From an uncultured Candidatus Binatia bacterium (lineage in GTDB: Bacteria > Desulfobacterota > Binatia > Bin18): 64,000 bases of DNA. Where the stretch lies: assembly GCA_958296235.1 (NCBI GenBank), contig OY282457.1, positions 1,488,501-1,552,500 of the forward strand, read 5' to 3'. Below the pieces are notes generated by a model. It worked only from the letters and a program-made list of their open reading frames with translations, ran no database searches and was not told where the DNA came from. A program made the translations under genes and the position numbers. Below are positions 6,485 to 35,092 of the stretch, in pieces (position 1 is the first letter of the stretch; the number at the start of each line of letters is the position of its first letter).

Positions 6485-7903
6485 ATGAGTCAGCAGCAGG
6501 CATACGCACAGCCGCCCGCTCCGCGTCCCTTTGAGCTGGACGTTGAGAAGTTACGAGACCTGGAACGCCATAATAAGCTGCCGGTCTTTACGACCTTTCA
6601 GGATCATGCCGACGGAGATTTCACCGTTATTGTCGCAGGCAAAGGGGTCTATCTCTGGGATGCTGAGGGCAATCAGTATCTCGACGGCTGCTCCGGCATT
6701 GGCAATGTGGGCTTGGGCTATGACCAGACCGAGATCGCCGACGCGGTCCACGCGCAAATGAAGACCCTCCCGTTTCATTTAGGCGGCTGGAATTTCTCCA
6801 CCCCGCCCTCCATTGAGCTGGCAGCAAAATTAACCCAGCATGCACCAGACGGGCTGAACCGGGTGATTTTTGTCTCAGGCGGTTCAGAAGCCAACGAGAC
6901 GGTCATCAAGGTCAGTCGCCTCTATTTCCGGCTGCGCGGTTTTGAGAAGAAAACCACGGCAATTGCGCTGGACCGCAGCTATCATGGGGCAACGTATGGG
7001 GCCGCCAGCCTGACGGGACTCCCCCATATGCACGAACACTTTGAGCCTATGCTGTCAAAGGTTCGGCATATTCCCACCCCGTACCGCTATCGTTGTGAGC
7101 AGTGTGGGACGCAGCCGGCCTGCACCCTCGCCTGTGCAGACATGCTGGAAAAGGTCATTCTCGAAGAAGGGCCGGAAACCGTTGCCTTCTTTATTGCCGA
7201 ACCCGTGCTGGGAGGCGGGGGCGGCATCCCCCTTCCCCCGGAATACTTCCAGCGTATCCGGGCGATCTGTGACAAATATGATGTGCTCATGGTATCCGAT
7301 GAGGTCATTACCGGTTTCGGACGGACGGGCAAGATGTTCGCCATTGAGCATGCGGGCGTCACCCCGGATATGATCAGTACGGCCAAGGGCATCAATAGCG
7401 GTTATCTGCCGCTCGGTGCCGTGCTCCTGCACGAGAAGATTTACGATACCTTTCTGCAGGCTCCCGAAGGCACCGATTTCTCCCACGGCTATACCAACTC
7501 CGGTCATCCGGTGTGCTGCGCGGCCGGGCTGAAGACGCTTGAGATTATGGAACGGGACCAGCTCGTCGACCATGCGGCCCGGATGGGGGCGCTCTTTCAC
7601 GAGGGGCTGGCCGAATTGCACTCCTCGCCCATCGTCGGCGATGTGCGGGGTCTGGGCTTAACCGCGGGCCTGGAGTTCGTCCAGAATAAAGAGATGCGCG
7701 AGCCTTTTCCGCCCGAGACCAATGTCGCGGACTACGTCCGTCGGGCGGCCATGAAACGCGGACTCCTGGTGCGGGAACTCGGGCCTGATATTATTTTTAT
7801 GGCACCGCCGCTGATTATTACCCAGCAGGAGGTCGGCCTGCTCCTGCAACGTCTGAAAGACACGCTAACCGAGACCGAAGCATGGCTCGCCGCCAAGGCG
7901 TAA
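6485..7903 (+). CDS. Class III aminotransferase, PLP-dependent
   Basis: A 472-residue fold-type I aminotransferase of the omega-amino acid/class III group. The PLP-binding Asp region reads SDEVITGFGRTGKMF and the Schiff-base lysine is Lys301 in STAKGINSGYLPLG. A Cys-rich stretch near residues 203-217 (CEQCGTQPACTLAC) precedes the large-domain core and is typical of a subset of this family. AAGGAGG lies upstream of the ATG. It probably transfers an amino group between an amine or omega-amino acid and pyruvate or 2-oxoglutarate. It is same-strand with the hydrolase operon but separated by 280 bp and a hairpin, so it may have its own promoter. Confidence 0.92.
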   Translation: MSQQQAYAQPPAPRPFELDVEKLRDLERHNKLPVFTTFQDHADGDFTVIVAGKGVYLWDAEGNQYLDGCSGIGNVGLGYDQTEIADAVHAQMKTLPFHLGGWNFSTPPSIELAAKLTQHAPDGLNRVIFVSGGSEANETVIKVSRLYFRLRGFEKKTTAIALDRSYHGATYGAASLTGLPHMHEHFEPMLSKVRHIPTPYRYRCEQCGTQPACTLACADMLEKVILEEGPETVAFFIAEPVLGGGGGIPLPPEYFQRIRAICDKYDVLMVSDEVITGFGRTGKMFAIEHAGVTPDMISTAKGINSGYLPLGAVLLHEKIYDTFLQAPEGTDFSHGYTNSGHPVCCAAGLKTLEIMERDQLVDHAARMGALFHEGLAELHSSPIVGDVRGLGLTAGLEFVQNKEMREPFPPETNVADYVRRAAMKRGLLVRELGPDIIFMAPPLIITQQEVGLLLQRLKDTLTETEAWLAAKA

Positions 7904-7915
7904 AACGGTAACGGG

Positions 7916-7937
7916 CTGGGGGCTGCGCGGCCCCCAG
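7916..7937. terminator. Hairpin between convergent genes
   Basis: A perfect 8-bp stem (CTGGGGGC / GCCCCCAG) with a 6-nt loop fills the 38-bp gap between the plus-strand aminotransferase and the minus-strand monooxygenase. The position and symmetry fit a bidirectional terminator. There is no T-run on either side. Confidence 0.55.
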
Positions 7938-7941
7938 TGAC

Positions 7942-9771
7942 CTAGCGAACGATCAGTCCTTCGAAATCGCCCTGCGCGCGCCAGGCGGCGAGCATATCGT
8001 AAAAGGGCACCGCGCCGTCGGGATACTGCGTCTCGATAAAGCCCTGCCCTTCGTTTTTCCCCTCTCCGTTGTAGTAGCCGGGCGTACAGGTGTTCTGGTA
8101 CTCGGTCATGAAGGTCGGTCCGGTCACCAGCTTCACCCACTCGTCCTCGGCTTCGGGGGTGGGCTCGATGGACTGCGCGTCGCGCGCGCCTACCTGGGTA
8201 ATGAGATGGGCGATATGAACGGCCTGCCCGTTCAGCATATAGGTGAAGTTGGGCGCGAGGCCGGTCTGGGTGAGCCCCATGTGAAAGCAGTTCGGAAAGC
8301 CGGAGCTCAGAAAGCCGTGGTAGGTCTTCATGCCGTCCGCCCAGTAGTCGCTCAGCGACCGCCCGTCACGACCGTACACCTCGAACTCGGCGCGGCGCGT
8401 ATACGCCGTCCCGACCTCAAAGCCGGTCGCGTAGATCAGACAATCCACTTCATACTCGACGCCATCCACGACCACCGCGGTCTCGGTGACACGCTCGACG
8501 CCCTTGCCCTTGGTGTCTACCAGCTTGACGTTGGGACGGTTGAAGGTCGGCAGATACTCGTCGTTGAAGGTCGGGCGCTTGCACCACTGTCCGTACCAGG
8601 GTTTGAGCGCTTCCGCGGTTTCCGAGTCGGTCACGGTCGAGGACACGCGCGCCCGAATCTCGTTCATCTTCTGATAGTCGGCGATCTCCGACATGAGCGC
8701 CATGCCTTCGTCGGAGAGGTCGGAATCCTCCTTGCCGGTGAGCAGTTCGGAGAGTTTCTTGAACAGGCTGGTCCACTTGTCACCGACGAGGTCTTCCTCA
8801 ACCGGAAGACCGGCCAGGATGGAGCAGAAGTTGTTGTTGCGATAGTCCTGCCAGCCGGGCTTCAGCGTCCTGACCCATTCCGGGTCGGTCGGCTTGTTGC
8901 CGCGCTCGTCCACCGAGGACGGTGTGCGCTGGAACACGTAGAGCTGTTGGGCGTGCTCGCCCAGATGCGGCACGGACTGGATCGCGGTCGCCCCGGTGCC
9001 AATGATACCTACCCGTTTATCTTTGAGCTTGTGCAAGTCGCCGGTCGTATCACCACCGGTGTAGTCGTAGTCCCACCGGCTGGTGTGGAAGGTATGCCCT
9101 TTGAATTTTTCGATACCCGGAATCGCCGGCAGCTTGGGACGATTCAGGGGCCCGCTCGACATGATCACAAAGCGTGCCTGGAAGACATCGCCGCGATCAG
9201 TAGTAATCGTCCAGCGCCCGTCCTCGTCGTTCCAGCGCGCCTCCCTGACCTGGGTCTGGAAGCAGGCCCGCTCATAGAGATTGAAGTGTTTCCCGATCCG
9301 CTGGGCGTGCTCAAAGATCTCCGGCGCAAAGGAGTATTTTTCCTTGGGCATATAACCGGTCTCTTCGAGCAGCGGCAGATAGACATAGGACTCGATGTCA
9401 CACTGCGCGCCGGGGTAGCGGTTCCAGTACCAGGTACCGCCAAAATCTCCAGCCTTCTCGATGATGCGAATATTGGAGAGCCCTTCCTTCTGCAGCCGCG
9501 CCGCCGCAAGCAGGCCACCAAAGCCGCCACCGATAATCACCGCGTCGAGCGCTTCGTGCAGCGCGGGGCGGGTGAAGCCCGGCTCGACATAGGGGTCTGT
9601 GTTGTAGTGTTCGTACTGGCCGGTGATTTCCCGATACTGGTTGTTTCCGTCTCCGCGGAGACGCTTGGTACGCTCCTCGGCGTACTTCTCACGCAGGTCA
9701 GCCGGATCGAAGCCTAGCTCTGCGGGAGTGGGAATTCCGTTCGGTTGGGATGACGCTACCGCTTCATTCAT
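7942..9771 (-). CDS. Flavin monooxygenase, Baeyer-Villiger type (copy 1)
   Basis: A 609-residue FAD/NADPH class B monooxygenase. After an N-terminal extension of about 75 residues comes the FAD motif GGGFGG (81-86), then [15 protein letters not shown], which is typical of cyclohexanone-monooxygenase relatives. The BVMO fingerprint FxGxxxHxxxW appears as [11 protein letters not shown], followed by the NADPH motif GTGATA. The extended N-terminus resembles phenylacetone/cyclododecanone-type enzymes. GGAGGG lies 8 nt before the ATG. It is divergent from copy 2. The expected reaction is oxygen insertion beside a ketone to give an ester or lactone. The ketone is unknown. Confidence 0.92.
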
Positions 9772-11757: not shown

Positions 11758-12564
11758 ATGACATACGAAACATTTACCCTCGAACGCTCCGGTCCGATTG
11801 TCACCGTCTCTTTCAATCGACCGGCAAAACTCAATCCCCTCAACGAGCAGGTGCTGCGTGAGTTCCTGGCCCTTACCTACGAGCTCCAGGAGGACGAGGA
11901 CTCACGAGTTGTGATTCTGACCGGCAAAGGCCGTTCGTTCAGCGTTGGCGCAGATATGAACGCTCTGTCCAACAGCGCCAAACCGGAAACCCAGGCCACC
12001 CTCACCGATAGCGCCCGGCTGCGGATGGCGAAACTCGGCTGGCGGGTGATGGATGAGTGGGAACGCCTGGACCAGATCAGCATTGCCGCGGTTAATGGTT
12101 TTGCGGTGGGCGGTGGCGTGTCCCTGGCTATGGCGTGTGATTTTCGCATTGCCGCCAGTGGCGCTCGCCTGTGGTTGCCCGAGGTGCGGCTGGGCGTGCC
12201 GTATATGTGGGGCTCGATTACCCGCATGATTAACCTGATCGGCATGGCCAAAGCCAAAGAACTGGTGATGACCTGTGATGAGCTGACCGCAGAAGAAGCC
12301 GGTGAGGTCGGCCTGGTCAACCAGGTCGTGCCGTTGGAGGAGTTACACGACGCGGTCCACGCCTTTGCCCAGAAGCTGCTCAACAAGCCGCCTATGGCGC
12401 TGCGTCGAACAAAAGAATTTTTCAAAGCGCTGAGCACCAACAAGGCTGGCGATATTACCTATGCCGACGCCCATCTGGGGCTGGCCTGCACGCTGGGGGA
12501 CGATATGCGCGAGGCCGTGGCCGCGTTCCGCGAGAAACGCGACCCGGTGTTTGCCAACCGGTAA
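11758..12564 (+). CDS. Enoyl-CoA hydratase/isomerase (crotonase)
   Basis: A 268-residue crotonase-fold protein. The oxyanion-hole segment AVNGFAVGGGVSLAMACDFRI and the second active-site segment LPEVRLGVPY are both present. The ATG at 11758 is chosen because AAAGGAGAAGG lies just upstream; an in-frame start at 11713 would overlap the FMO. It probably hydrates or isomerises an enoyl-CoA. Its position after a BVMO suggests a ring-opened acyl-CoA is processed further, but no CoA ligase lies nearby. Confidence 0.9.
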   Translation: MTYETFTLERSGPIVTVSFNRPAKLNPLNEQVLREFLALTYELQEDEDSRVVILTGKGRSFSVGADMNALSNSAKPETQATLTDSARLRMAKLGWRVMDEWERLDQISIAAVNGFAVGGGVSLAMACDFRIAASGARLWLPEVRLGVPYMWGSITRMINLIGMAKAKELVMTCDELTAEEAGEVGLVNQVVPLEELHDAVHAFAQKLLNKPPMALRRTKEFFKALSTNKAGDITYADAHLGLACTLGDDMREAVAAFREKRDPVFANR

Positions 12565-12934
12565 GTGTACCGACTCCTGCGGCGATATCAGCAAGACTGG
12601 GCCTTCGACCGGATTCTTTTAGCTCACCTGCCGCGCTATTCCCTGGAACGTGTGATGCAAATTAAGTTGTTCAGCGGCCCGGGGCGCTGTTTCGCCCCGC
12701 TCCCAGCGGGAGCGGGCCTCTTGTCTTGCCCTCTCCCCTGGAGGGAGAGGGTGGCCCTGAGCCTGTCGAAGGGCCGGGTGAGGGGGCCGACGGGCCGCTT
12801 GGGGGGCCGGCGACACAATGGGCAGCACACGTCTGGAGGGAGAGGGCTGGGATGAGGGGAATTGCAAAGTGAGAGCCGCCCGTTCACTTACCAAGCGATA
12901 AAACAGGTGCTAGTCTGACCCAGGGGGACATTCC
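12565..12934. repeat. Gene-free stretch with G/C palindromes (REP-like)
   Basis: No gene is supported here. The stretch holds a series of palindromes: GGGGCG/CGCCCC, then CCGCTCCC-AGC-GGGAGCGG (12697-12715), then CCCTCTCCC paired with GGGAGAGGG around 12729-12750, and a CCTGAGCCTGTCGAAGGGCC-type segment. A second GGAGGGAGAGGG follows near 12836-12847. Degenerate relatives occur at about 17640-17662, 23876-23907 and 60736-60780. The layout resembles dispersed REP/BIME-type repeats. The hairpin at 12697-12715 may also end transcription of the crotonase. Confidence 0.6.
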
Positions 12935-14206
12935 ATGCAGCAGACTGCCATTGATCCGATCCAGTACGATACCCTTGTCCAAAACGAGCGGGTCCACAGA
13001 TCGCTGTACACCGACCCGAATATTTTTACTGATGAGTTGGAAAAAATTTTCTACCACGGCTGGGTGTTTATGGGTCACGCCAGTGAAATCCCCCAGCCGG
13101 GGGACTTTATTACGCGCCAGGTCGGCACCCAGTCGGTCATCCTGGTACGCGGCACAGACCACACCGTCTCGGCCCTCCTCAACCGCTGCGCGCATCGTGG
13201 CACGACCGTCTGCCCGGCGGAACGCGGCCATGCCCGCACGTTTACCTGTCCCTATCATGGCTGGAGTTATGACCTGACTGGCGCCTTGCAGGGCGTCCCC
13301 TACCCGGCCGGATACGGGGAATCTTTTGATAAAAAAGAGTACGGGCTGACGCGCGTGCCGCGGCTGGAGAGCTATCGGGGGTTTGTGTTCGTCAGTTTGA
13401 GTCCGAGCGGTGTCTCACTCGCCGACCACCTTGGCGCGGCGGCGCAATTGATCGACCGGGCGTGCGCCCTCTCGCCGGAGGGCGAGATCGCACTTGGCGC
13501 CGGCTGGATCAAGCATCGCTATCCGTCCAACTGGAAAATGCTGCCCGAAAACGACACGGACGGCTATCATCTCGGCTTTGTGCATCGTTCCATATTGAAA
13601 GCGGTCGGCTCGCAGTATCGGCGTTTTGTGGGTGAGGAAAAAAGTATCAAATCCGTCCTGCGCGACTGGGGGCAGGGACACACGGAAATCGATTTTGTCC
13701 CCGCCTACCAGCAGCCGTTCGAGTGGTTCGGCGGCGTCTCGGAGGGTCTGGCCGCCTCCTATCTGGCCGCGATGGAGCGCAGCTATGGCAAAGAGGAAAC
13801 CCAGCGCCGGGTTTTCGACGGCCCGCCGCACGCCTTTATTTTTCCCAATCTCTTTTTGGCCGAGATGAATATCGCCATCATGCAACCCGTCAGCGTTGAC
13901 GAATGCGTCCAGTGGCACACGCCCCTGTTCCTCAAGGGTGTACCCGAATTCAACAAGCGCCTGTTGCGGCAGAGCGAAGCGGCAATGGGGCCGGGGTCGT
14001 TTCTGCTACCCGAAGATGTGACGATTGCGAGTCGCAACCAGCTCGGATTAGGGACGCGGAACGCCGAGTGGCTGGAACTGAGTCGCGGCCTGAACCGTGA
14101 ATATATTGATAGCCAACAGCAGCGCGTCGGGCATATGACCGACGAGACCACAAACCGGGCGTTCTGGTTGCACTATCGCAGCGTGATGCAAAACGGCCAG
14201 GTCTAG
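12935..14206 (+). CDS. Rieske aromatic-ring-hydroxylating dioxygenase, alpha subunit
   Basis: A 423-residue large subunit. The [2Fe-2S] Rieske ligands are Cys85/His87 (CAHRG) and Cys105/His108 (CPYHGW). The mononuclear iron site shows the canonical NDTDGYHLGFVH, with a bridging Asp three residues before the first His. A beta-subunit gene follows after 5 bp, so this is a two-subunit alpha/beta oxygenase. No ferredoxin or reductase gene is next to it, so electrons must come from elsewhere. The closest families hydroxylate benzoate-, phthalate- or phenylpropionate-like rings. Specificity is not readable. Confidence 0.93.
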   Translation: MQQTAIDPIQYDTLVQNERVHRSLYTDPNIFTDELEKIFYHGWVFMGHASEIPQPGDFITRQVGTQSVILVRGTDHTVSALLNRCAHRGTTVCPAERGHARTFTCPYHGWSYDLTGALQGVPYPAGYGESFDKKEYGLTRVPRLESYRGFVFVSLSPSGVSLADHLGAAAQLIDRACALSPEGEIALGAGWIKHRYPSNWKMLPENDTDGYHLGFVHRSILKAVGSQYRRFVGEEKSIKSVLRDWGQGHTEIDFVPAYQQPFEWFGGVSEGLAASYLAAMERSYGKEETQRRVFDGPPHAFIFPNLFLAEMNIAIMQPVSVDECVQWHTPLFLKGVPEFNKRLLRQSEAAMGPGSFLLPEDVTIASRNQLGLGTRNAEWLELSRGLNREYIDSQQQRVGHMTDETTNRAFWLHYRSVMQNGQV

Positions 14207-29084: not shown

Positions 29085-29753
29085 ATGGCGGTGACGACAC
29101 GTATCGGACGACCCCCTGGGGCAGATGGCGAGGCCACGCGGGAGACTATTCTGAAGGCCGCACTCGAAGCCTTTGCCGAGGCCGGCTTTGAAGCCATGTC
29201 CGTCCGCGCGGTAGCCCGGCGGCTGGGCGTCAGTCACAACCTGATCCACCATCATTTCGCGTCCAAGCGCCAGCTGTGGTATGACGCCATCGATTATGGG
29301 CTGGGCCGCCAGGCGAGTGAAATCCGCCAGTTTCTGGAGATTCCCGAGTCCAGTCCGCAGGCTGCGATTGCCGGATTTCGGGAAGCCGCCCGCCGCTTCA
29401 TTCTGCTTGGGGCCCATCTGCCGGCCATCCCTCGGATTTTGCTGCACGAATTCGCCGAAGGGGGCGAACGGCTCGACTATATCTACGACCAACATATGCA
29501 GCCCCTGGTCGAAGGGGCGATTCGCTTCCTCGAGCGGCTGGGCGAGGCCAAGGCGGGCGAGATTGACGCCCGCAGCTTTGTCCTGCTGATTACCACCAGT
29601 ACCCTCTCGCTCTTCAATCAGTCGGCGTATGCCGAGAAGATTGGCGGGCCCGACCCCTTCTCCGAAGAAGCGGTCGAACGGCATATCCAGACGGTCACGC
29701 GTATTATCCTGACTGGTGTGTTAGCGGAGCCCATGCTCGGCTATCAACGCTAG
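29085..29753 (+). CDS. TetR family transcriptional regulator
   Basis: A 222-residue repressor. The N-terminal helix-turn-helix spans about residues 17-63 (ILKAALEAFAEAGFEAMSVR, then GVSHNLIHHHFASKRQLW). The C-terminal domain is helical with the ligand pocket. It is divergent from the acyl-CoA dehydrogenase/FMO operon, and the two palindromes in between are its probable operators. It may also influence the Rieske operons that follow on the same strand. The ligand is unknown, perhaps a CoA ester or the pathway substrate. Confidence 0.92.
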   Translation: MAVTTRIGRPPGADGEATRETILKAALEAFAEAGFEAMSVRAVARRLGVSHNLIHHHFASKRQLWYDAIDYGLGRQASEIRQFLEIPESSPQAAIAGFREAARRFILLGAHLPAIPRILLHEFAEGGERLDYIYDQHMQPLVEGAIRFLERLGEAKAGEIDARSFVLLITTSTLSLFNQSAYAEKIGGPDPFSEEAVERHIQTVTRIILTGVLAEPMLGYQR

Positions 29754-29863: not shown

Positions 29864-29940
29864 GTGCGGCTGCCAGGGAATGAGAGCGAACCGCGAGGAG
29901 AAACGGTTTCCCCAAGTGAGAAAACGGAAAGGAGGCCATA

Positions 29941-30309
29941 ATGGAAAGCAAGAGCGAAGAAAAACTGTCAGGCCCAGCAGCGCGACTCCTGCCCGAGCAA
30001 TTCCAGGACCTTGCCCCATTCCTTGAATGGGCCTTGGCAACGGAGCCTGAGCGGAGTGCGAAGCGCCAGGCCAGCCCGATGGAAGAAATCAACGCGTTTT
30101 ATCAAGCGATATTCCCGCGGATGAAGGACATTCTACCGTTTTTGGAGCGGTTTACACCTGAAAATGCCCCGGATGATGTGCAGCGCTTATTCCATCTCAC
30201 CCTCTCCTTGGCTGAAATCGCCCCGGCGGTTGAAAATTACGGGCAGCCAAGTGTTGTTGATGGGTATGATGTCACCCGCTTTGTCGAAAATCACGAACAA
30301 CTGAAATAA
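29941..30309 (+). CDS. Rieske-associated small helical protein, copy A
   Basis: A 122-residue protein of unknown family, mostly helical, with no membrane or signal segment. Recognisable blocks are FQDLAPFLEWALATEPERS, then MEEINAFYQAIFPRMKDIL and RLFHLTLSLAEIAPAVENYG. All recur in the paralogue at 31.6 kb. AAAGGAGG precedes the ATG. A Rieske oxygenase starts 29 bp downstream, and the same pairing recurs in the second copy. The conserved pairing suggests an accessory or regulatory partner of the oxygenase, or of its electron supply. This is inference. Confidence 0.75.
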   Translation: MESKSEEKLSGPAARLLPEQFQDLAPFLEWALATEPERSAKRQASPMEEINAFYQAIFPRMKDILPFLERFTPENAPDDVQRLFHLTLSLAEIAPAVENYGQPSVVDGYDVTRFVENHEQLK

Positions 30310-30338
30310 GGAAGGTCATCGCCAGAGGAGGGAAACTC

Positions 30339-31541
30339 ATGGCATTGGGGAAAAACAAATGGCACGACCGTTATCCAGAGCTCGGGACTGGCCCCATCCC
30401 GGTCGAGCCGTATGTCTCACCAGAATATTTTGAGCAAGAACGCGACCGGATCTTTCGCAAAACGTGGCTCAATATCGGCCGGGTCGAGCAGATTCCTCAG
30501 CCTGGGGATTATTTTGTCAAAGACCTCACCGTCTGTAACACCTCGATTCTGGTTGTTCGTGGCAAGGATGGTGAGGTCCGCGCGTTCCATAACATGTGCT
30601 CGCACCGCGGCAATCAACTGGTGTGGGACACCAAGGGCAGGTGTCAGACTTTTTCATGCAAGTTCCACGGCTGGACGTACGCCCTGGACGGCTCACTCCG
30701 CCACATTACGGATGAACACAACTTCTTTGGTCTCAAGAAAGAAACACTCGGTATGACGCCGCTTGCGGTTGACACCTGGGAGGGCTTCATCTTTATCAAT
30801 GTGGACCCTGACCCTCAGCAGGCCTTATCGGAGTACTTGGGGAAAGGGCTGCGCACAAGCATCACAGGCTATCCCTTTGAGGACTTATCGACCAACTGTT
30901 TTTCCTGGCACACGGACGTGCAGGCCAACTGGAAAGTCGCTAAAGACGCCTTCCAGGAGGTGTATCATATCTCCACCCTGCACCGGCGCATCATTGGGGA
31001 TGTATATGCGAGCAAAGCCAATCCGTATGCGAATGCACTCGACTTTACCCTGTATCCTCCGCATGGCCGGGTCTCGCTGTCCGCAAATCCAGGCCGGAAA
31101 CTCACCGGTGTTGAGTCCATAGTGCAGGGGTTTGGTTCGACGGTGCTGCAACAGAATAACAGTGCTTCGGAGGAGCTGCCCGCAGGTGTGAATCCTACCG
31201 GGTATCCGCACTGGTCCTTCGATGGCCTGGCTCTTTTCCCGAACTGCCTCATCTACGTGTCAAAGGGAACGTATCTGACACATATTTTTTGGCCCATAAC
31301 GGAAAACCTGACACGCTGGGAAATTCGGACCTATTCACCCCAAGCGGAAACGCTCTCGGGCCGATTCAGCCAGGAATACGGGAAGGTTTCCTTCCGTGAC
31401 ACCTTGTTAGAAGATGCCAGTACGCTGGAGCGGACCCAAACGATGCTGAGGTCAGGCGCGAAGAAGGAAATCGTCCTGCAAGACGAAGAGCTGCTCATCC
31501 GCCAGCATTATAAAGTGACGGAAAGTTTTTTGAACGCGTAG
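30339..31541 (+). CDS. Rieske non-heme iron oxygenase, copy A
   Basis: A 400-residue oxygenase component. Rieske ligands are Cys87/His89 (MCSHRG) and Cys107/His110 (CKFHGW). The mononuclear site reads KDAFQEVYHISTLH, with Glu rather than Asp three residues before the first His, as in carnitine/glycine-betaine-type Rieske monooxygenases. No beta subunit lies nearby, so it is probably an alpha-only trimer. It is about 55-60% identical by eye to the oxygenase at 31.9-33.1 kb. The small protein upstream is presumably co-expressed. The substrate is unknown. Confidence 0.92.
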   Translation: MALGKNKWHDRYPELGTGPIPVEPYVSPEYFEQERDRIFRKTWLNIGRVEQIPQPGDYFVKDLTVCNTSILVVRGKDGEVRAFHNMCSHRGNQLVWDTKGRCQTFSCKFHGWTYALDGSLRHITDEHNFFGLKKETLGMTPLAVDTWEGFIFINVDPDPQQALSEYLGKGLRTSITGYPFEDLSTNCFSWHTDVQANWKVAKDAFQEVYHISTLHRRIIGDVYASKANPYANALDFTLYPPHGRVSLSANPGRKLTGVESIVQGFGSTVLQQNNSASEELPAGVNPTGYPHWSFDGLALFPNCLIYVSKGTYLTHIFWPITENLTRWEIRTYSPQAETLSGRFSQEYGKVSFRDTLLEDASTLERTQTMLRSGAKKEIVLQDEELLIRQHYKVTESFLNA

Positions 31542-31558
31542 GTAAGGGAGCCATCCGA

Positions 31559-31897
31559 ATGTCCAAGCGTCAACTGCCGGAGGGGTTTCAGGATCTTGAG
31601 CCATATCTTGAATGGTCTTTGGCCACGGACCGTGAGCGCAGCATCAAACGCCAGACGAGTCCGATGACCAAGATTACCGCCTTCTATCAAGCCGTTGTGC
31701 CACGTATGGATGAAATCCTGGCCTATTTAGAGCAGTATCCGTTGGAGCAAGTCCCGGCCGACGCGCAAAGACTGTTCTATCTCACCCTCTCGTTAGCCAA
31801 GATTGCTCCTGCCGTTGAAATGTATGGTGAACCTGTGCCCGAGGGGCTGGATACGTTACGACTTGAGAACATTGATATCTATCCGACCCGAAGCTGA
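31559..31897 (+). CDS. Rieske-associated small helical protein, copy B
   Basis: A 112-residue paralogue of the protein at 29.9 kb. It shares FQDLEPYLEWSLATDRERS, SPMTKITAFYQAVVPRMDEIL and RLFYLTLSLAKIAPAVEMYG. The N-terminus is shorter, lacking about 12 residues of copy A. It starts 17 bp after Rieske A and ends 29 bp before Rieske B, so all four genes are probably one transcript. Function unknown. Confidence 0.75.
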   Translation: MSKRQLPEGFQDLEPYLEWSLATDRERSIKRQTSPMTKITAFYQAVVPRMDEILAYLEQYPLEQVPADAQRLFYLTLSLAKIAPAVEMYGEPVPEGLDTLRLENIDIYPTRS

Positions 31898-31926
31898 GCA
31901 CGGGCGAAGAAAAGGAGGGCGAGGAC

Positions 31927-33144
31927 ATGACCCTGCAGACCAACGGAGCCACAGGCGGGAAATGGCACGCGCGGTATCCTGAGTTGGGAACTGGACCGGT
32001 CCCCATCGAACCCTACATCTCACTCGAATATTTCGAGAAAGAGCGTGAGCATATTTTTCGGAAAGTCTGGCTCAACGTGGGCCGAGTGGAACAAATTCCC
32101 GAGCCCGGCGACTATTTTGTGAAAGACTTGGCCGTGTGTCGGACCTCGGTCATCATTGTCCGCGGTCACGATGGCCAAGTGCACGCCTTTCACAATATGT
32201 GCTCGCACCGCGGCAATCCGGTCGTGTGGAACGCGAAGGGGACGTGCAAGATGTTCACCTGCCGCTACCACAGTTGGACGTATGGGCTGGATGGTACTTT
32301 GCGGCATATCCCGGACGAAAAGAATTTCTATGGCATCAAGAAGGACGCGCATGGACTGACGCCGGTTGCCGTTGATACCTGGGAAGGCTTTATTTTTATA
32401 AATGTCGATCCACGCCCAAAAGAGACGCTACGCGAATACCTCGGAGCAGCGGGGGAAAGTTTTGAGGGCTATCCGTTTGCGGAGATGGCAACCGGCTGCT
32501 CGACCTGGGAGGTCGATGTGAATGCCAATTGGAAGGTGTGTAAAGACGCCTTCCAAGAGGTCTACCATATCTTCAGTCTACATAACAAAAGTACGGGAGC
32601 GGCGTTTGCCAGCACGTCCAATCCGTATTTGAATGTGCATGAACTGGCGCTGTTTGGCCCGCACGCGCGCATATCGGTCCCGGCGAATCTCGACTGGAAA
32701 CCCACCCCGGTTGAAGCCCTGGCAAGACGATATGGCATGCTGGCCCTGCAAAAACAGGGCAGCTCTTCACAGGGAATGCCCTCTGGTGTGAATCCAACCG
32801 CTTCCCCGGACTGGTCGTTCTCGGGATTGATCTATTTCCCCAATATGTGTCTCTTTGTTGCGGATGGCGGTATTATTATGCACACCATGTGGCCACTGTC
32901 GGAAAACCGCACCCACTGGGAAGCCCGGACCTATTTCCCGAAAGCAAAAACGCTGGCGCACCGATTCAGCCAGGAGTACAGCCGGGCCACGTTCGTCGAC
33001 GGAGTACTGGTCGAGGATGGTGGGACGTTTGAGAAAACCCAGTCCATGCTGGCCTCAGGAGCAAAGAAACAAGTCATCTTGGGAGATGAAGAGCTCCTCA
33101 TCCGTCACCATCACAAGGTGACAGAACAGTTCTTTAACGCGTAG
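31927..33144 (+). CDS. Rieske non-heme iron oxygenase, copy B
   Basis: A 405-residue paralogue of copy A. Ligands are Cys92/His94 (MCSHRG) and Cys112/His115. The second loop reads CRYHSW, with Ser in place of the nearly invariant Gly after the His ligand. The mononuclear site is KDAFQEVYHIFSLH, again with a bridging Glu. The ends of A and B (RHHHKVTEQFFNA here, RQHYKVTESFLNA in A) remain alike, so the duplication covered the whole gene. AAAGGAGGG precedes the start. Possibly A and B form a hetero-oligomer or act on successive substrates. Confidence 0.92.
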   Translation: MTLQTNGATGGKWHARYPELGTGPVPIEPYISLEYFEKEREHIFRKVWLNVGRVEQIPEPGDYFVKDLAVCRTSVIIVRGHDGQVHAFHNMCSHRGNPVVWNAKGTCKMFTCRYHSWTYGLDGTLRHIPDEKNFYGIKKDAHGLTPVAVDTWEGFIFINVDPRPKETLREYLGAAGESFEGYPFAEMATGCSTWEVDVNANWKVCKDAFQEVYHIFSLHNKSTGAAFASTSNPYLNVHELALFGPHARISVPANLDWKPTPVEALARRYGMLALQKQGSSSQGMPSGVNPTASPDWSFSGLIYFPNMCLFVADGGIIMHTMWPLSENRTHWEARTYFPKAKTLAHRFSQEYSRATFVDGVLVEDGGTFEKTQSMLASGAKKQVILGDEELLIRHHHKVTEQFFNA

Positions 33145-33517: not shown

Positions 33518-35092
33518 TTACTTCAGCCGGTTCACATCGTCCGGGTTGATCAGGTCCGGGACGGTCCAGCCGTCGATATCGTATTCCGCCATACACTGAT
33601 CAACAAATGATTTGAGTTGGTCGGCGCGGCCCATGGCCACGGCTGCCGGCAGGTTTTCGAGTTTGATGTTTTCATAGTTGCCGGCGTAGTTGCGCTCGTA
33701 CAGTTCATGCCGCCCGCCAAATTCGGTCCCGACGGCATCCCACAGAATCTTGAGCAGCTTGACGCGCTCCAGCGCATCGTAATCGTTGGAGCCGCGTAAA
33801 TATTTCTCAAGATAGGGCCGCAGCTCCGGCGTTTTGAAGTCTTTCACATGCGAGTTGAGATAGATCAGGCCGCTTGAAATAGTTTGCTCGATAATCTCTT
33901 TGATACGGGGATAGGCGACCGGAGCCAGGACGCGGTAGGCCAGACCGTATTCCGTGTTGGGCTGGAGAGCGCCGTTGACCCATTGCTCGGGGGTCTTGGT
34001 CATGGCCTCGGTCAGGCCCCAGAACATATGCCGCCAGGCCAGCACCTCACCGACCTGCACCTGGGCGCTGCGCTGGTCCTGGATGCCAAGCGCGTCGAGC
34101 GCTTTCAGCAGGACTCCGGCCAGAAAGTCCAGCTTGACCGCAAACCGGGTGCAGCCGTGCAGGGTAAAACGCGGGATAAAACCTGAGCCGGGGAAAAAGG
34201 CGTTGGCCTTATCCAGGTCGCGGTAGACAAACAGATTCTCCCAGGGGATAAGGACCTTGTCCAACACCAGAATGGCATCGTTCTCATCCAGGCGGGAAGA
34301 CAGCGGATAGTCGAACGGGCTGCCCAGGCTGGCGGCGTGCAATTCATACGACGGGCGACAGAGCAGCTTTACACCCGCACTCTGCATGGGAATCATGGCA
34401 AACAGCGCCATCTCGGGTTTGCCCAAAGGCGTCGGCCCGTAAAAGCCGATGAAATTGTGGTGCGTCAGGGCAGAGCCGGTCGCAACTACCTTGGCGCCGC
34501 TGACGATGACCCCCGCATCGGTTTCTTTTTCTACCCGCACATAGACATCTGTGACGTCGTCCGGGGATTTGGTCTTATCGACCGGTGGGTTCACCAGGGC
34601 ATGATTGAGAAACAGGCAGCGCTCCTGGGTGTGACGATACCAGCGTAACGCATTGTCCTGATACGGCGCATAGAACTCGGCGTTGGCACCCAGGGTGCCG
34701 GTCAGGCTGGCCTTGTAGTCTGGCGAGCGCCCCATCCAGCCGTAGGAGATGCGCGCCCACTCGGCAATGGCGTCCCGACTGCCGATCAGATCCTCCGTAC
34801 TCTTCGGGACCTTGTAGAACTTATGCGTGAACCCGCCGTTGCCCGTATCGGTCGGCGTGCTGAGCGTCGGCGCTTTCTGCGGGTCGTGCAGGGCATCATA
34901 CATGCGCGCCAGCATACGGGCGGAATTCCGAAAAGCCGGGTGCCTGGTGACGTCGGTGACGCGCTCACCATAGATCCAGACCTCTCGGGCGTCCCGCAGG
35001 CTGTCAAGGAATTCCTGGCCGGTCAGGGGTCTGTGTCCGGGCTCGCTGTCGGTGTGCGCCCTCGGGTCGGCGGCCGGTGTCTGTTGGCTCAT
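33518..35092 (-). CDS. 4-hydroxyphenylacetate 3-hydroxylase-family flavin oxygenase (HpaB-like)
   Basis: A 524-residue reduced-flavin-dependent hydroxylase of the HpaB/PvcC group. The N-terminal domain starts near [22 protein letters not shown], a mid-segment [18 protein letters not shown] fits the flavin region, and the C-terminal helical domain ends with [13 protein letters not shown]. The ATG at 35092 has GGAGG upstream; an in-frame ATG at 35170 lacks it. Such enzymes need a flavin reductase (HpaC), which is not in the window. The substrate is probably a phenol or related ring compound. Confidence 0.9.

Follow-up and report, generated by a model that had tools for sequence, protein, structure and literature searches.

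Four consecutive plus-strand genes in the window (the whole stretch of 64,000 nucleotides analysed here, from an uncultured Candidatus Binatia bacterium) lie in the order S1-R1-S2-R2, where S is a small helical protein and R a Rieske non-haem iron oxygenase (Table 1). The S-to-R gap is 29 nt in both units and the R1-to-S2 gap 17 nt, and the motif aggagg (29930-29935) occurs shortly 5' of the S1 ATG. An earlier, sequence-only reading of this DNA had described two pairs, each with a small protein of 122 or 112 residues placed 29 bp before an alpha-only Rieske oxygenase, and our coordinates and gaps agree with it. The TetR-family gene is, from its position, a possible regulator of both units. The same flank of the window also holds a flavin monooxygenase and an acyl-CoA dehydrogenase, and the opposite flank an HpaB-type hydroxylase and a biotin-dependent carboxylase; among the flanking genes read, no redox partner was found adjacent to the S-R units. 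A further Rieske-domain gene, which belongs to another clade and has no S, is present at 13013-13594.

Table 1. Genes of the two S-R units and the regulator gene preceding them (positions in the window).
Feature	Length (aa)	Position	Strand	Basis
TetR-family regulator, immediately 5' of the units		29085..29753	+	position
S1, small helical partner protein, unit 1	122	29941..30309	+	ORF; S1/S2 match
R1, alpha-type Rieske non-haem iron oxygenase, unit 1	400	30339..31541	+	Pfam; ligands
S2, small helical partner protein, unit 2	112	31559..31897	+	S1/S2 match; AlphaFold model
R2, alpha-type Rieske non-haem iron oxygenase, unit 2	405	31927..33144	+	Pfam; ligands; AlphaFold model

Both oxygenases match PF00355 (Rieske) and PF00848 (Ring_hydroxyl_A) well above cut-off, and R carries the CXH and CXXH cluster ligands, the 2-His-1-carboxylate triad and a bridging acid, E211. 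Residues C92, C112, H214, H219, D364 and E211 were invariant in 31 R sequences, with H94 and H115 conserved in at least 90% of them. Given this conservation of the cluster ligands, Glu211, His214, His219 and Asp364, R should be an active oxygenase. The AlphaFold model of R2 (pLDDT 90) returned CntA and Stc2 as its top matches in both Foldseek and VIA-align (for CntA 6zgp, VIA-align Z 36.9, rmsd 2.2 over 339 residues), and by fold R models as a CntA/Stc2-like alpha3-type oxygenase. It shares fold and cofactor sites with the carnitine monooxygenase CntA, the stachydrine demethylase Stc2 and GbcA, its bridging Glu occupying the same, usual position, but it is only 23% identical to CntA and is not a glycine betaine monooxygenase of the GbcA family (NF058607; 119 bits versus a cut-off of 670). 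To our knowledge, no S-like protein has been described with CntA, Stc2 or GbcA.

An alignment of 66 members of the S family revealed invariant L6, P7, F10, W19, R27, R31, Y43, L72 and E87; no Cys or His is conserved. The AlphaFold model of S2 (pLDDT 87.6, the C-terminal tail being less certain) is all-helical, with four helices at residues 11-19, 24-33, 36-57 and 67-89. Bar one chance match, none of the 66 members hit a Pfam family; S likewise matched no family in NCBIfam, PHROGs or PADLOC and nothing significant in a sequence search of the PDB, and its model had no Foldseek match among solved structures at E 0.001. The best VIA match of the model (Z 5.1, to GGA1 GAT) is generic for helices. 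No described family matching S emerged from these searches, in line with the initial impression that no characterised Rieske accessory protein has its segments. No description of S was found in the open-access literature, subscription literature being outside the search, and the family appears to be undescribed in databases and open-access literature, while the oxygenase itself is of a known kind.

Operons of the alpha3beta3 dioxygenases, such as naphthalene and biphenyl dioxygenase, also place a small gene after the alpha gene, but S is shorter than their NTF2-fold beta subunit, and it is not a beta subunit as judged by PF00866 (Ring_hydroxyl_B), which it does not match, or by fold, its model being a four-helix one. 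A role for S in place of the beta subunit was partly rejected, because some S-R operons add a separate SnoaL-fold protein, itself not PF00866. Nor is S a Rieske-type ferredoxin, as it lacks the [2Fe-2S] ligands. Clusters that encode IacB serve aromatic degradation and also encode a Rieske oxygenase. S is like IacB, by description only, in being a small protein in such a setting; IacB, a protein of unknown role in the indole-acetate pathway, has been studied with IacE and IacA and not with the Rieske component (PMC7225977).

The two units of the window are paralogous gene by gene, as first proposed, with S1 and S2 showing 63% identity in a local match of 100 aa (58% globally) and R1 and R2 about 60% identity. 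The R tree places R1 with the R of a lone S-R unit from another genus of the family (G015; supports 100/99), and R2 with that of a lone unit from a same-genus genome (G006; 100/100); a quick tree of S recovers the same grouping with supports of 87 and 99. The G015 unit is thus closer to unit 1 than unit 2 is, and the G006 unit closer to unit 2 than unit 1 is. Each window unit can be matched to a different orthologue in other genomes of the family, so the duplication is evidently old and precedes the split of its genera. The tandem duplication of the sequence-only reading therefore holds as to paralogous units in which S stayed paired with R, but both trees argue against a recent event. As the units share partners in both trees, S1-R1 and S2-R2 are the units that were inherited. 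Distances among S proteins track those among R proteins (r 0.89 for the seven pairs of the window's own genome, with 2 of 5040 relabellings doing as well; r 0.85 for 97 pairs), a correlation that is expected for any linked genes and that linkage alone would yield in part.

The pairing extends well beyond the window. The window's own genome encodes seven full-length S and ten full-length R-clade genes; every S adjoins one R, and none of the seven Rieske genes of other clades adjoins an S. A sample of 58 related genomes contains 84 S genes, 82 of which adjoin an R on the same strand, the two others both lying at contig ends, and S was found beside none of 34 other Rieske genes among the weaker matches listed. 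A set of 14 whole genomes from Actinomycetota and Pseudomonadota encodes as many full-length R as S, 49 of each, and all are paired (49/49). Apparent S orphans were checked for contig ends, unscored R candidates, and R genes truncated or broken by IS6100; once missed R candidates and contig ends had been read, S adjoined R in 51 of 51 cases in a sample of Actinomycetes and 24 of 24 in one of Alphaproteobacteria. When one S motif was run against a collection of 84,980 species genomes, 55 loci were recovered, each having a same-strand R, which was adjacent in 53; at the metagenome loci L077 and L079, S and R are 2.9 and 1.5 kb apart. That S homologues might sit mostly away from Rieske genes was the outcome named beforehand as counting against a partnership, and the opposite was seen in nearly all complete contexts.

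Presence and absence tell the same story. Of 396 sampled whole genomes, 46 carry S together with the R clade, the other 350 lack both, and no genome carries one without the other: S and full-length R occur in the identical 19 of 58 Binatia and class relatives, the identical 17 of 148 Actinomycetes and the identical 10 of 190 Alphaproteobacteria. The S family spans Binatota, Actinomycetota and Pseudomonadota beside one Rieske clade. The suggestion that S works with the oxygenase thus gains strong support from adjacency and from a co-occurrence without exception in 396 genomes of three phyla. One small alphaproteobacterial genome (G356, 2.5 Mb) is unusually dense in these genes, with ten S and about as many R, and in another genome (G007, contig C37) a degenerate second S with two in-frame stops (bases 34030-34209) lies beside an intact R-S pair.

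The bond is less strict when viewed from R. Two orthologous groups of R in Binatia have no adjacent S, and the same holds for five R genes among the sampled Actinomycetes and for two in a single alphaproteobacterium; every genome holding such an R encodes S elsewhere. The two Binatia groups, those of L011 and L014 (2660948 and 3623116 in the window's own genome), have been kept in several Binatia genomes with no S nearby. For part of the R clade, S may thus work in trans or not be needed.

S is also found on plasmids of sphingomonads, Cupriavidus, Acinetobacter, Azospirillum, Rhodococcus and Variovorax, where it is annotated 'hypothetical protein' beside genes annotated 'ring-hydroxylating dioxygenase alpha' or 'SRPBCC'. 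Plasmid pABRDHK22 of Novosphingobium sp. EMRT-2 carries S-R pairs at 570-2195, 6778-8357 and 12540-14083, all within 16 kb, with a SnoaL-fold neighbour at two of the three. In Cupriavidus necator C39, R is reduced to approximately its last 30 codons, followed by S, and on two lindane-degradation plasmids (L056, L122) a truncated, displaced R lies beside IS6100; these plasmid S genes with broken R look like decayed pairs. No R was found within the 10 kb read around S in Sphingobium indicum pSRL1. On three lindane-degradation plasmids of Sphingomonas and Sphingobium (L056, L121, L122), the S gene is accompanied by linC and a gene with an EthD domain. Nov2c349 of Sphingobium, considered as an S-linked oxygenase, was dropped, being a TesA2 homologue.

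The order seen in the window, S then R, is the minority order across the family: R precedes S by 76 to 6 in the 58-genome set, by 47 to 2 in the 14 whole genomes and by 91 to 11 in a further set of pairs. S-then-R pairs fall in several separate branches of the tree, and gene order has evidently flipped more than once while adjacency was kept. In 38 of 89 R-S pairs the genes share a four-base overlap (ATGA, GTGA or TTGA), an arrangement that points to translational coupling.

We suggest that S is probably a small subunit dedicated to a single clade of Rieske oxygenases, of the CntA/Stc2-like alpha3 kind. Each R paralogue would be made with its own S from adjacent, often overlapping genes; S would most likely bind the R trimer stoichiometrically, and would be needed for trimer stability or turnover. 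The window units would be old duplicates, presumably with differing substrates. The strictness of the S-R bond, the possession of an own S by nearly every R paralogue, the overlap of reading frames and the constancy of S while redox and pathway genes change all speak more for a dedicated subunit of the oxygenase itself than for a shared chaperone, an adaptor for docking or an enzyme of the pathway. We judge S more likely to be a structural or catalytic subunit than a protein for assembly, docking or substrate supply.

Small helical proteins frequently act as chaperones, and S could instead assist R from outside the active enzyme, in folding, trimerisation, or loading of iron or the [2Fe-2S] cluster; supply in trans would fit the restriction of S-less R loci to genomes with S elsewhere. 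Such a chaperone could be shared, whereas separate, diverged copies of S accompany almost all R paralogues, with up to ten in one genome (G356) and seven in the window's own, and S distances track R distances among paralogues. Other-clade Rieske oxygenases of the same genomes do without S, which moreover has no conserved Cys or His for carrying metal, and we consider this role rather unlikely. Docking of an electron donor, whether reductase or ferredoxin, would suit the window, where R must use a redox partner encoded elsewhere. But the nearby partner is a VanB-type reductase in Rhodococcus, Cupriavidus and Mycolicibacterium, and a Rieske ferredoxin, accompanied in some cases by a separate reductase, in Novosphingobium, Acinetobacter and Azospirillum, S belonging to the same family throughout, which makes an adaptor of this kind quite improbable.

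We give equally little credence to S as an independent pathway protein (a substrate carrier, regulator or small enzyme) that stays beside R through operon selection only. Parallel divergence can arise from operon linkage alone, and the lin plasmids do place S with linC and the EthD gene; the neighbours nevertheless differ between loci (amidase, SnoaL, SDR, TauD, cupin, carboxylase), with only S-R constant, even when inverted, and the two lin plasmids with a truncated, displaced R next to IS6100 seem to show a decayed pair rather than a separate use of S. A different kind of subunit is suggested by analogy with MmoB, TmoD and DmpM, the coupling or effector proteins of soluble diiron monooxygenases, which are non-redox proteins of approximately 100 residues encoded one-to-one with their oxygenase. 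S resembles them in working mode, by analogy only; it does not match their Pfam family, its model is all-helical and its oxygenase is a Rieske enzyme. We know of an effector-type control layer only from diiron monooxygenases (MmoB type), and it is unlikely, if conceivable, that S is an effector-like coupling subunit controlling how oxygen is activated, or how substrate gains access, in a large Rieske clade. If it were, R expressed without S would look inactive or uncoupled.

Rieske oxygenases serve widely as models in pollutant breakdown and biocatalysis, and accounts of them name an oxygenase and its redox partner. The dedicated-subunit reading points to a probable function for proteins that currently carry the label 'hypothetical protein', and suggests that oxygenases of the R clade possess an additional component that has been overlooked. 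With a conserved third protein in this clade, which extends over Actinomycetota, Pseudomonadota and Binatota, these oxygenases would be expressed and assayed differently, and a requirement for S may account for inactive Rieske oxygenase preparations.
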